A stretch of DNA of 64,000 nt from Gemmatirosa kalamazoonensis (lineage in GTDB: Bacteria; Gemmatimonadota; Gemmatimonadetes; Gemmatimonadales; Gemmatimonadaceae): NCBI RefSeq assembly GCF_000522985.1, contig NZ_CP007129.1, positions 62,001 through 126,000 of the forward strand. Reading direction: 5' to 3'. The first letter of the stretch is position 1, and each line of letters begins with the position of its first letter. Below are positions 43,613 through 58,360 of this stretch, piece by piece. The position numbers and the translations under genes were made by a program. The notes beneath the pieces are model-generated. The model saw only the letters and a program-made list of their open reading frames with translations, made no database searches and was not told where the DNA came from.

Positions 43613-43742
43613 TCGAGTTTACCAGAAGTGCGGCTTCCGCATGCATCACGTGCGACAGGACTACTTCTGGTACGAGCGGCGGCCGCGGTTCGAGCACGGG
43701 ATCCGCGTGCAGGACCTGCTCGTGTTCCGATACGTTCTTTGA
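43613..43742 (+). pseudogene. 3' fragment of a GNAT acetyltransferase
   Basis: The last 42 codons before TGA 43740 read as the C-terminal end of a GNAT enzyme: RVYQKCGFRMHHVRQDYF, then an acidic/basic loop and HGIRVQDLLVFRYVL. The YxxxGF motif and the closing G-I-x-x-x-D-x-L strand are typical. No acetyl-CoA-binding part is found upstream in any frame; instead the GTTCGC cluster begins. The gene was probably cut by the prophage or a related rearrangement. Confidence 0.6.
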
Positions 43743-43833
43743 CAGGATGAACAGGACGGACAGGATGTAAACCAACACCGAGCGCGTTGCCGTTCGTGTT
43801 GGTTTACATCCTGTCCGTCCTGCTCATCCTGTC
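43741..43833. repeat. CAGGATG-family long hairpin, copy 1
   Basis: A 38-base arm starting GACAGGATGAAC (43741-43778) is repeated inverted at 43796-43833 with one mismatch, around a 17-base loop. The arm is built from the words CAGGATG and CAGGACGG. It lies between the GNAT fragment and the LysR gene. Confidence 0.9.
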
Positions 43834-43868
43834 GAAGAACGAACAGCAACGAGATCCTGTCGATTGCC

Positions 43869-47472: not shown

Positions 47473-47639
47473 TCTCGCGCGGAGGCGCGGAGAACGCGGA
47501 GAAAGTCCATCGAAACCGCAGAGGACGCAGAGGGCCGCAGAGGACCGCACTTGATGTTCTCTGCGGCCCTCTGCGTCCTCTGCGGTTCGATCATCACAGC
47601 GAAGGAAGCTCTGCGCCGTCACCGCGCCTCCGCGTGAGA
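47473..47639. repeat. Two-level nested hairpin
   Basis: The outer arms (TCTCGCGCGGAG at 47473, CTCCGCGTGAGA ending 47639) are built from GCGGAG words. Inside lies a perfect 29-bp stem (47514-47542 with 47559-47587), built from CGCAGAG words. The whole gap between the lipoprotein and acetyltransferase genes is occupied by it. Confidence 0.9.
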
Positions 47640-49178: not shown

Positions 49179-49271
49179 GACAGGATGAACAGGACGGACA
49201 GGATGAGAACCAACAACACGTGTAGTGCCTTTGTTGTTGGTCTTTATCCTGACCGTCCTGTTCATCCTGTC
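49179..49271. repeat. CAGGATG-family long hairpin, copy 2
   Basis: A 40-base arm (49179-49218) is repeated inverted at 49232-49271 with four mismatches and a 13-base loop. It lies between two minus-strand genes. The outer 27 bases are the same as in copy 1. Confidence 0.9.
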
Positions 49272-49311: not shown

Positions 49312-50276
49312 TCACGCGACGAGCGTGCGCGCGAGGAGCTCGGCACCGAGGTTGCCGCCGCAGAGGATGATGATGCTCGGGCCGCGCGCCGGTGTCTTGC
49401 GCCACGCGGCGACCGCGACGCCGGCCGCGCCCTCGACGACCATGTGATCGCCGAGCGCGACCTCGCGCATCGCGTCGGCGATCTCCGCTTCGCTCACCGT
49501 CACGTGGTCGTCGATGAGCGCCGCGCAGAGCGGGACGGTGATCGCGCCCGGCTCGAGGTTCCCGGCCGTGCCGTCGGAGAGCGTCGGCTCCTCCTCGACC
49601 TCCACGACGTGGCCGGCGCGGATCGACGCGAGCATCGCGGTCGCGTGCTCGGGCCAGCAGCCGACCACGCGCACGTCGGGGCGCGCCGCCTTCACCGCCG
49701 CCGCCACGCCGGCCGCGAGCCCACCGCCGCCGACCGCGACGTAGATCGAGTCCAGCTCGGGCAGCTGCTCGAGCAGCTCGATGCCTAACGTCCCCTGGCC
49801 GGCGACGACGTCGGGATCGTTGTACGGGGACACGTAGACGCGGTTCTCGCGCTCGCCTAACGCGCGCGCGCCGCCAGCTCGGCCGCCATCGGGTCGCCGT
49901 CGTGCGTCACGACCTCGAGCCCCGCCGCGGCGAGCTTCCCGACCTTGTACGCCGACGCCCCCGCCGACACGACGATCGTCCCGCGCCCACCGACGAGCCG
50001 CAGTGCCTCGGCGACGGCGAGGCCATGGTTCCCGGTCGAGGAGGTGACGACGCCGCGCGCGCGAGCCTCCGCGGGCAGCGACAGGATCTTGTTCAGCGCC
50101 CCGCGGATCTTGAACGACCCGGTGCGCTGCAGGTTCTCGCACTTGTACCACGCGCGGTCGTTCGGATCGAGCGCGCGCGCGGGGACCACCGGCGTGCGGA
50201 GCGCGTACGGCGCGAGCCGCTCGGCGGCGGCGCGGATCTCGTCGCGGAGAGTGACGAGCGTGGGAGCGGCGGTCAT
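49312..50276 (-). pseudogene. Threonine/serine dehydratase, frameshifted
   Basis: Two frames together give a full PLP-dependent dehydratase. The first (50276 to 49857) holds YKCENLQRTGSFKIRGAL with the PLP lysine and TSSTGNHGLAVAEAL. It stops at a TAG right after a CGCGCGCG run. The second continues at once (ALGERENRVYVSPYNDPDVV) with VAVGGGGLAAGVAAAV and ends at 49312 with IIILCGGNLGAEL. One base gained or lost in the CG run explains it. It may be a real pseudogene, a frameshift product or an assembly error. The enzyme would make 2-oxobutanoate from threonine. Confidence 0.8.
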
Positions 50277-50289
50277 GGGCCAATGTTAA

Positions 50290-50560
50290 TCTCACGCGGA
50301 GCCGCGGAGAACGCGGAGCGGTGAACCGGCCGTGCATGTGAACCGCAGAGGGCGCAGAGGGCCGCAGAGCCTTTCACCTGAACCACAGAGGACACGGAGG
50401 ACACGGAGGAAAACCAACTCTCTTCAGAAGCGTTCTCCTCTGTGCCCTCCGTGTCCTCTGTGGTTCAATACAAGGAGGGCAGTCCTCTGCGGCCCTCTGC
50501 GTCCTCTGCGGTTCGATTCGAAGAGGAAGTTCTCCGCGTGCTCCGCGCCTCCGCGTGAGA
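50290..50560. repeat. Three-level nested hairpin
   Basis: The outer arms begin TCTCACGCGGAG (50290) and end CTCCGCGTGAGA (50560). The middle 29-bp stem is 50341-50369 with 50485-50513 (one mismatch). The inner 32-bp stem is 50379-50410 with 50436-50467 (two mismatches), made of CACAGAG and CACGGAG words. It fills the divergent gap between the dehydratase and the permease, so it is not a simple terminator. Confidence 0.9.
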
Positions 50561-50630: not shown

Positions 50631-53063
50631 GTGTCGTTCAGCATGATGGAGCTCCGCTCGGCCGCGCGCGGCCTGATGCGCGCCCCCACCGTCGCGGTGT
50701 CGGCGATCCTCTGCCTCGCCCTCGGCATCGGCGCCACCACCGCGATCTCGAGCGCGATCGACCGCGCGCTCGTGCAGGCGCTCCCATTCCGCGCGCCCGA
50801 CCGGCTCGTCGCCGTGTTCCGCACGACGCCGCAGTCCGGGCCGCAGGGCACGTGGCCGCAGTCCGTCGCGAACTACCTCGATCTCGCCGCGGGCACGCGC
50901 CGGCTGAGCGCCCTCGCCGCCATCTCGCAGGGGACCGCGCTCGTCACGCTGAAGGGCGGCGCCGTGCAGGCGAGCCAGCTCTACGTGACCGGCAACCTGT
51001 TCCCGCTGCTTGGCATCGCGGCCGAGCGCGGACGGCTCATCGGGCCCGAGGACGACCGCACCGACGCGCCGCTCACCGCGGTGCTGAGCGACGAGTTCTG
51101 GCGCGCCACGCTCGGCGCCGACCCGACGATCGTCGGACGCACCGTCATCATCGACGGCGACCCGACGACCATCGTCGGCATCGCGCCGCGCGATCTCCGG
51201 CTCCCGGTGGGGCCGCAGATGCTGAAGGCCGACGTGTGGATGGCGACGCGCTTCACGGCGCCGCAGCCCGGCACGCGGCGCAACAACTTCCTGCAGCTCG
51301 TCGGACGGCTCGCCCCGGGCGCCACGCCGGAGGCCGCGGAGACCGAGCTGCGCACGCTGTTCCAGGGGATCGTCGCCGCGAACCCGGAGCTGCGCGGCGA
51401 GAACGTGCGCCTCGCCGGGATGCAGCCGGAGAGCGTGCAGTCGATCCGCACGCCGCTGCTGCTGCTGTTCGGCGCCGTGTGCATGGTGCTGCTCATCGCG
51501 GCGACGAACGTGGCGGGGCTGCTGCTCGCGCGCGGCGTCCAGCGGCGGCGCGAGCAGGCGGTGCGCTCCGCGCTCGGCGCGAGCCGGTGGGACGCGATGC
51601 GCCCCGCGCTGGCCGAGTCGGCGGTCGTCACCGTCGTCGGCGCGACGTTAGGCCTCGGCCTCGCCGCCGCCGGCGTGCGCACGATCGGCAAGCTCGCGGC
51701 GGCACGCATGCCGCAGCTCGAGGGGCTCGGACTCGACCCGCGCGTGCTGCTGTTCGCGGTTGCCGTGTCGGCGGTCGTCGCGGTGGTGTGCGGCGCGGTG
51801 CCGGCGTGGCGCGGCGCCTCGGTGGATCCGCAGGACGCGCTGCGCGGTGGACGCGGCGGCGGCATCGGCCGGTCGCAGCACCGCATGCTGCGCACGCTCG
51901 TCGTGTTCGAGATCGCGCTGTCGCTCGTGCTGCTCATCGGCGCGGGGCTCGTGCTGAAGGGCTTCGCGCAGCTGCTGCGCAACGATCCCGGCTTCGAGAC
52001 GGCGCACGTGATGACGATGCGCGTCGCCGTGCCCGCGGCCGCGTACACGAACCAGCGCGCCGTGCCGCGCTTCCTCGAGCCGGCGCTCGACGCCATGCGG
52101 GCGATCCCGCGCGTGGAGAGCGTCGCGGCGATCTCGGCGCCGCCGTACGTGAACTGGGGGAACAACTCCAACATCCGCTACGAGGGACAGCCGAAGGACG
52201 ACCCGACGCGGCAGCCGATCGTCGAGCAGCGCACGATCACGCCCGGCTTCTTCGACGTCACGAAGCAGCGGCTCATCGCCGGCCGGCTGCTGAACGCGTC
52301 GGACGACGAGCGCCCCGAGGCGCCGGCCGTCGTCGTCGTGAACCAGGCGCTCGTGAAGCGCGACTTCCACGGCGAGAACCCGGTGGGCCGCCGCTTCTAC
52401 ACGAGCGACACGTCGTTCGCGACGATCGTCGGCGTGGTGAGCGACATCCGCAACATGGGTCCTGCCACGGATCCGCAGCCGGAGATGTACTGGACGTACC
52501 GCCAATCGGGGCTCGGCAGCTCGTCGTTCCCGCTCGTGATCCGCGTGCGCGGCGAGGACCCGACGGCGGTCACCGGCGAGGTGCGCGCGGCGCTGCGGCG
52601 GATCGACTCGCAGGCCGCGGTGTCGCAGGAGCGCGCGATGCCGGACGTGATGGCGAAGGCGTTAGGCCGCCCGCGCTTCTACTTCAGCCTCCTCGGCACG
52701 TTCGCCGGCGTCGCGCTGCTGCTCGCGCTCGCCGGGCTGTACGGGGTGCTGAGCTACGTCGTCGCGCAGCGCACCCGGGAGCTCGGGATCCGCACGGCGC
52801 TCGGCAGCTCGTCGGTGGGGCTCGTGGCGCTCGTCACGCGCGACGGGCTCGCGCTCGTCGTCGCCGGAGTCGTGCTCGGCCTCGCGGGCGGCGCGGGCGT
52901 GACGCGGCTCATGGAGTTCATGCTCTACGGCGTGAGCCCGCTCGACGTCGTCGCGTGGTCCGGCGCCGCGCTCCTCATGATCGCCGCCGGTGCGCTGGCC
53001 ACGCTCGTCCCGGCGCGGCGCGCCACGCGCGTCGACCCGACGATCGCGATGCGGGCGGAGTGA
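50631..53063 (+). CDS. ADOP/MacB-type orphan ABC permease
   Basis: The 810-residue protein has the FtsX/MacB layout twice: TM helix (VAVSAILCLALGIGATTAI), a MacB_PCD periplasmic domain, and three TM helices (LLLLFGAVCMVLLIAATNVAG onward). A second TM, periplasmic domain and three-TM set follow, the last with FAGVALLLALAGLYGVLSYVV. It ends with VPARRATRVDPTIAMRAE. No ATPase gene is adjacent, as is usual for the acidobacterial duplicated orphan permeases that are also common in Gemmatimonadota. GTG 50631 has GAGGG five bases upstream. In-frame TTA codons occur only in GTTAGGC (51647, 52661) as far as seen. Confidence 0.85.
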   Translation: MSFSMMELRSAARGLMRAPTVAVSAILCLALGIGATTAISSAIDRALVQALPFRAPDRLVAVFRTTPQSGPQGTWPQSVANYLDLAAGTRRLSALAAISQGTALVTLKGGAVQASQLYVTGNLFPLLGIAAERGRLIGPEDDRTDAPLTAVLSDEFWRATLGADPTIVGRTVIIDGDPTTIVGIAPRDLRLPVGPQMLKADVWMATRFTAPQPGTRRNNFLQLVGRLAPGATPEAAETELRTLFQGIVAANPELRGENVRLAGMQPESVQSIRTPLLLLFGAVCMVLLIAATNVAGLLLARGVQRRREQAVRSALGASRWDAMRPALAESAVVTVVGATLGLGLAAAGVRTIGKLAAARMPQLEGLGLDPRVLLFAVAVSAVVAVVCGAVPAWRGASVDPQDALRGGRGGGIGRSQHRMLRTLVVFEIALSLVLLIGAGLVLKGFAQLLRNDPGFETAHVMTMRVAVPAAAYTNQRAVPRFLEPALDAMRAIPRVESVAAISAPPYVNWGNNSNIRYEGQPKDDPTRQPIVEQRTITPGFFDVTKQRLIAGRLLNASDDERPEAPAVVVVNQALVKRDFHGENPVGRRFYTSDTSFATIVGVVSDIRNMGPATDPQPEMYWTYRQSGLGSSSFPLVIRVRGEDPTAVTGEVRAALRRIDSQAAVSQERAMPDVMAKALGRPRFYFSLLGTFAGVALLLALAGLYGVLSYVVAQRTRELGIRTALGSSSVGLVALVTRDGLALVVAGVVLGLAGGAGVTRLMEFMLYGVSPLDVVAWSGAALLMIAAGALATLVPARRATRVDPTIAMRAE

Positions 53064-53082: not shown

Positions 53083-53159
53083 GGTCGTCCGCAGATTGCG
53101 CAGATTTCGCAGACCGCTCTTCACCAGCGCTGCGGAATCTGCGTAATCTGCGGACCACC
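53083..53159. repeat. GCAGATT-word hairpin
   Basis: A 30-base arm (53083-53112) pairs with 53130-53159 with three mismatches. The arms repeat the word CGCAGATT. It fills the gap between permease and methyltransferase. Confidence 0.85.
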
Positions 53160-57250: not shown

Positions 57251-57333
57251 GGACAGGATGACGGGACGGACAGGATGAAAACGAACCACTAGTGCGTGGT
57301 TGTATTCATCCTGTCCGTCCCGTCATCCTGTCC
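57251..57333. repeat. CAGGATG-family long hairpin, copy 3
   Basis: The arm GGACAGGATGACGGG onward (57251-57289) pairs with 57296-57333 almost perfectly around a six-base loop. It directly follows the terminator and runs up to the next gene. Confidence 0.9.
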
Positions 57334-57971: not shown

Positions 57972-58360
57972 GGCGGGACGACTGACGGCGGGACGACTGA
58001 CGGCGGGACGACTGACCGCGGGACGACGAACGGCGGGACGACGAACGGCGGGACGACGAACGGCGGGATGTCTGACGGCGGGACGGTCGACGGTCGGGGC
58101 GGGATGCGTTCAGCGGGATCCACGCTGCGTCGGATTGGTACGGCAGCGGTTTCAGCGCATAGCACCTTGGGCGAAGGGGGGGAGCCCCCCTGGCACCTAG
58201 GTACGCGCCGTTCAATCCCGCCCTCGACCATCTCGCAGTGGATCGTCCCGCAGTGGATCGTCCCGCAGTGGATCATCCCGCTGTGGATCGTCCCGCCGTC
58301 GATCGTCCCGCCGTCGATCGTCCCGCCGTCGATCGTCCCGCCGTCAGGTGTGAGGCGTCC
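57972..58360. repeat. Giant hairpin with 15-nt unit arms
   Basis: The left arm (57972-58095) holds about eight units of the type ACGGCGGGACGACTG. The right arm (58225-58360) holds about ten units such as TCGTCCCGCCGTCGA, its complement. The spacer (58096-58224) has a GGGGGG/CCCCCC hairpin. It lies between two convergent genes. Frames through it are periodic pentapeptides and not counted as genes. Confidence 0.85.

Follow-up and report, generated by a model that had tools for sequence, protein, structure and literature searches.

How did three hairpins come to lie nested in one another's loops within a single 271-base gap? The gap belongs to a window of 64,000 nucleotides (positions 62001-126000 of a 1.1 Mb replicon) in the 7.48 Mb genome of Gemmatirosa kalamazoonensis. 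Read on the plus strand, positions 50290-50560 hold an outer pair of arms (50290-50318 and 50532-50560; 29 nt, 93% complementary) made of CGCGGAG words with the end motif TCTCA, a middle pair (50340-50369 and 50485-50514; 30 nt, 97% complementary) made of CGCAGAG words with the end motif ATTGAACC, and an inner pair (50379-50414 and 50432-50467; 36 nt, 92% complementary) made of CACAGAG/CACGGAG words. Spacers at 50319-50339 and 50515-50531 separate the outer and middle layers. Between the middle and inner layers, the left spacer (50370-50378) is of a short type C (CCTTTCACCTGAAC) and the right spacer (50468-50484) is of type A (reverse complement GACTGCCCTCCTTGTATTGAAC); both motifs overlap an inner arm end. 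The 17-nt apical loop (50415-50431) adjoins an ACCAA motif common to unrelated word families. As a single strand, the region folds into one three-storey hairpin with a DNA folding energy of -113 kcal/mol versus -52 for shuffled sequences (z -14.8), and the RNA fold gives z -16.5. An inverted repeat with its score was absent from all five first-order Markov sequences as long as the window. Arm complementarity, fold z-scores and Markov controls thus bear out the three nested hairpins of the preliminary description, and the gene calls (49857-50276 minus, 50631-53063 plus) agree with its placement of them between divergent genes. The divergent gap is an exception for this word family, being shared by only 6 of the 62 copies placed in gaps. 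An Rfam search of the 64-kb window returned no match above the gathering score. The dehydratase-like minus-strand gene beside the locus (49312-50276) is called as two frames, 49857-50276 and 49312-49863, which appears to reflect a frameshift or sequencing error.

The same structure occurs in simpler form at 47473-47639. Here the outer arms (47473-47501 and a degenerate 47610-47639, plus strand) enclose middle arms (47514-47545 and 47556-47587) that are 97% complementary, and the fold has z -12.5. The outer-plus-middle version lacking the inner layer is therefore real, though its right outer arm is worn (74% over the extended match).

A BLAST search of the same genome with the 271 bases alone found about 40 loci. 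We took a sample of 1.52 Mb (20% of the genome), consisting of 1.1 Mb of the window's replicon and a 0.42 Mb chromosome block, and added four 20-kb pieces selected for holding copies; the counts therefore come from 1.1 Mb of a single replicon and another 0.5 Mb, of which 80 kb were picked for copies. The 1.1 Mb of the replicon contained 151 long inverted repeats versus 3 in one Markov control, which excludes a chance origin. Hairpin loci numbered 137 in the 1.1 Mb block and 63 in the 0.42 Mb block, or about 200 in the 1.52 Mb sample. Their arms consist of approximately three or four tandem words in every word family, and the families include GAG words, ACAGGATG, GACTGAAG, CGGGACT, GCTGCGT, GAGGGCAG and others. 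The basic GAG element forms a hairpin some 75-100 nt long; each arm has about three words of 8-10 nt, and ACCAA/TTGGT is often present in the loop. The outer kind has a conserved end motif, GTCTCA, in 29 left and 24 right ends, and the middle and inner kinds share the conserved ATTGAACC end. Single middle elements are 95-98% identical on the chromosome (C2) and both large replicons (C3 and C4), where their flanks differ.

We examined 68 GAG loci in a census of the layers. Sixteen were outer singles, 15 were middle singles, 12 were middle elements enclosing inner ones, and about 12 held all three kinds, most with a damaged arm. The order was fixed, with CGCGGAG outside CGCAGAG outside CACAGAG: the outer layer enclosed the middle in 19 arm pairs and the middle enclosed the inner in 48. 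Other pairs were two of outer around inner, one middle-middle and one outer-outer on right arms, and one apparent inner around middle, which we read as a mutated outer arm. No inner element free of truncation or of other-layer remnants was seen among the 68 loci.

The spacers between the middle and inner layers are of type A (GACTGCC...), B (AACGGCAACTGC...) or C (CCTTTCATT...). They were unlike on the two sides in 18 of the 19 copies having both, and type A occurred on the left or on the right. When A was on the left, the right side was non-A in 13 of 14 copies; when the left was non-A, the right was A in all five (hypergeometric probability about 5e-4, calculated by hand from the spacer table). 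This pairing, with A on either side, shows the middle and inner layers to be a single directional element that was inserted either way round. The unit is about 175 nt long, and both of its orientations recur at many unlinked sites. The apical loops, too, can face either way, and their orientation is mostly but not always linked to that of the spacers. Copies C3:193410 and C2:4487456 match as far as the end of the right inner arm, beyond which they part into B versus C spacers, a mosaic pattern.

Sequences unrelated to the GAG words are nested as well. A palindrome family with CTGGGGATCC ends and core stands alone, for example at C3:692112 and C2:2106045, and also occurs inside GAG hairpins, in the loop of outer elements, in the loop of middle elements, in the middle-inner spacer and between the inner and outer layers. 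By inspection, 10 of 14 independent cores sit inside GAG hairpins; these hairpins make up about 0.6% of the sampled DNA. A count by script, in which copies in worn hairpins were overlooked, placed 3/6, 3/7 and 1/1 cores there (binomial p 0.001, 0.002 and 0.04 versus the 14% intergenic share). A composite of middle element, the independent palindrome core2 and inner element surfaced during an empty-site comparison at a GMC oxidoreductase locus; its copies at C2:2153954, C4:578500 and C4:944081 are 90-92% identical and have unrelated flanks. Only the copy at C2:2153954 is wrapped in an outer element, and the left middle arm of the copy at C4:944081 is mostly missing. The presence of this composite at three unlinked sites, one of them inside an outer element, indicates that nests, once formed, spread as units.

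The preliminary description had proposed a search of related genomes for one-, two- and three-layer versions and for empty sites, naming identical triples everywhere without intermediates, or layers absent from relatives, as outcomes contrary to successive insertion. Neither outcome occurred. All three forms exist, and an empty site was found. At C2:2130202, a middle hairpin and a half arm lie between two genes that we take to be rhaI and rhaB, as recognized from their translations. The gap between these genes has no hairpin in one genome of the same family (G096) and one from another family of the order (G102), and the flanking genes align with both at 70-85% DNA identity. Gain of an element was seen this once, and it concerns a middle single with a half arm, not a three-layer copy. 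The second comparison, at the GMC oxidoreductase locus, was uninformative, since the order of genes is not conserved there. The DNA of the two window sites gave no orthologous intergenic site in 59 relatives, and when 84,980 genomes were searched with proteins for a congener at the 50290-50560 locus, only distant matches appeared.

We also inspected copies in five further genera of the same bacterial family. In G098, the order runs from a CACAGAG layer inward to CGCAGAG and then to a GGGGG...CCCCC core. The layers are arranged in other ways in G211, G115 and G033, and some of these arrangements include an inner repeat turned inside out. These other orders argue that nesting is recurrent and its order lineage-specific. 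In G115 (L168, 10270-10683), alternating CACGGAG/CGCAGAG layers in a tandem array are followed by a GGGGAACGAC core hairpin. In Thiohalocapsa (L189, near 1280-1540), a CACAGAG arm faces about ten CTCTGTG words with a TTTATCTC microsatellite between them, an asymmetry that suggests growth of the words by slippage.

We therefore consider it probable that the hairpin stack is made up of small palindromes that were dispersed independently and became nested, with some of the nests amplified as units. Small palindromic elements would have inserted inside earlier ones, and some nests, above all middle-inner and middle-core2-inner, would then have been copied whole; at 50290, the three layers would represent a middle-inner unit inside an outer element. 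Successive insertion, as first suggested, is supported by the range of layer forms, by core2 being found both alone and inside, by the composite occurring with and without an outer layer and by the other orders in relatives. It needs two amendments. Each nest is not an independent event, since the middle and inner layers travel as one unit with fixed unlike spacers, and the insertions are not confined to the loop apex.

It is also conceivable, but unlikely, that the three-layer hairpin is original and that the one- and two-layer forms are its deletion products, arising for example by slippage or SbcCD-type processing. The strict order of the layers, the existence of half-lost arms and the fact that the inner element is always truncated or accompanied by other-layer remnants are as such a loss would predict. 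However, clean outer and middle singles are abundant and have their own end motifs and loops, one composite occurs with and without the surrounding outer layer between unrelated flanks, unrelated palindromes occupy the same loops, and relatives show other nesting orders.

Most GAG hairpins lie at the 3' ends of genes, and convergent gaps are enriched. In tandem gaps 32 of 39 copies are nearer the upstream stop codon; 17 copies are in convergent and 6 in divergent gaps, and the median distance from a stop codon is 14 nt. Several other hairpin families of this genome exactly fill convergent gaps. Such placement would fit bidirectional terminators or stabilisers of mRNA 3' ends that were duplicated because they are useful. 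As the primary explanation this is very unlikely. Hairpin and 3'-end position, two features of intrinsic terminators, are present, but the conserved right ends (GGTTCAAT or CGTGAGAC) have no T tract, one copy sits inside the rhaI-rhaB gene pair and the locus at 50290-50560 is in a divergent gap. Moreover, compensatory changes were seen in only 1 of 48 pairs of the middle-inner alignment, which gives no covariation support for a selected RNA structure. A role of this kind and mobility are not mutually exclusive; in the nested-palindrome reading, the hairpins may be tolerated after stop codons or used there as 3'-end structures.

Growth of the layers in place by fold-back (template-switch) replication at the hairpin, with no separate insertions, is likewise very unlikely: arms of tandem words that agree between left and right within an element, apical loops in both orientations and the known ability of template switching to homogenise arms and invert spacers (PMC8604942) speak for it, but each layer has end motifs and spacers of its own that recur at numerous unlinked sites, and near-identical units lie at unrelated loci, which indicates dispersal rather than local growth. 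The fold-back source of the layers offered in the preliminary description was not borne out, and template switching is plausible only for the likeness of arms and the flipping of loops.

We then return to dispersal of nested palindromes and to its mechanism. No target-site duplication was found, the mean best flank repeat being 2.35 versus 2.41 in permutations. A search of the whole genome for the Y1 (RAYT) transposase (PF01797) gave no match, while 5 of 14 control genomes were positive; a RAYT origin was rejected on this ground. The genome likewise has no match to reverse transcriptase RVT_1 (PF00078), so a reverse-transcriptase-based element (retron or group II intron) was also rejected. No unpaired arms pointing to a long autonomous version were found in the 1.52 Mb sample (20% of the genome). 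The copying may represent selfish mobility without a dedicated transposase, probably through single-strand hairpin or template-switch replication, and the same process might keep the arms alike and flip the loops. The left and right linkers of middle arms agree in 36 of 46 cases versus 24.8 expected, a value reached by none of 5000 permutations. Template switching between inverted repeats would give rise both to such agreement and to loops that face either way (PMC8604942). The same linker test was weak in the GACTGAAG family (246 of 5000 permutations reached the observed agreement), inner arms showed no left-right agreement of this kind and covariation is almost nil. Because of this, we regard arm homogenisation as a lead and not a result.

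Among known systems, the GAG family shows the defining trait of nested palindromes of the cyanobacterial SDR and Volvox type, which is insertion of repeats into their own or each other's copies. The SDR, reported by Elhai et al. in 2008, are said to be very small dispersed repeats, some inserted into their own copies. They are 21-27 nt long and not known outside cyanobacteria, whereas the GAG hairpins are 75-310 nt long and belong to another phylum; the comparison is one of descriptions. The view that no standard element has this architecture is too strong in any case. In the organelle DNA of Volvox carteri, palindromes inserted in palindromes have been reported, and the short hairpin repeat families are regarded as selfish (PMC2670323). 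Those repeats, with which the GAG family is compared by description, are AT-rich, organellar and about 50 nt on average, and the passages describing them mention no ordered three-layer units or tandem-word arms such as those of the GAG family (PMC2670323). The LIMP elements of Lobosphaera incisa mitochondria have arms of tandem words and a short loop in both orientations, as the GAG hairpins do, and lie only between genes; their repeat units are proposed to have been recruited by a related core (PMC4524435). Unlike the GAG hairpins, they have 5-nt words and one layer and are mitochondrial (PMC4524435). REP/REPIN sequences are similarly palindromic, extragenic, dispersed and of high copy number (PMC3116915, PMC3733652). 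In contrast to these, the GAG hairpins have no GTAG or CGTC tag at the foot, where GTCTCA and ATTGAAC are conserved instead, their arms are two to three times longer and their host genome lacks the Y1 transposase (PF01797) of REP/REPIN with RAYT. Because the tested defining features of REP/REPIN and MITE are absent, we group the family with the nested small palindromic repeats. Our literature search found no paper describing GAG words or such elements in Gemmatimonadetes, and we found no earlier description of ordered multi-layer palindrome units in bacteria.

The genome preserves a kind of fossil record of palindromes lodged within one another: it holds singles, doubles and triples, keeps them in a fixed order and shows copying of units. 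Its host lacks the enzyme usually credited with spreading such repeats, which makes transposase-free spread of hairpins directly testable. Of 200 genomes sampled from the phylum, 24 had GAG words, and only a few had them in abundance. Outside the phylum, an acidobacterium had 116 matches and a Chloroflexi genome 18. Plasmid and phage records gave only one hairpin, weak but clean and of three words, on a Bacteroides plasmid. With this recurrence, the answer on spread would not be confined to one species. An ACCAA/TTGGT apex is shared by three unrelated word families (45 of 70 short-loop hairpins versus 4% of intergenic windows) and was found in none of the remaining ones. We suggest, quite tentatively and as a doubtful extension, a class of transposase-free palindromic elements, patchy across phyla, that are copied from hairpin templates, prefer the loops of other hairpins and build layered structures that spread as units. 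If so, the three sequence-unrelated ACCAA-apex families would be substrates of one machinery.

Other hairpins were observed in the window. Three of them (43733-43841, 49179-49271 and 57251-57333) have GACAGGATG words, with more copies on the replicon, and the first two carry an ACCAAC apical motif. The hairpin at 53083-53159 is built of CGCAGATT words. At 57972-58347 there is an inverted array of a 15-nt unit (GGCGGGACGACTGAC...) with 85-nt arms about 200 nt apart, and similar arrays occur elsewhere on the replicon. The GCTGCGT and CGGGACT hairpins, tested for the ACCAA apex, do not have it. Together with the GAGGGCAG hairpins, they lie a few nucleotides from stop codons (C2:2000001-2420000 and C3) and often fill convergent gaps, and they look like bidirectional terminators built of tandem words.
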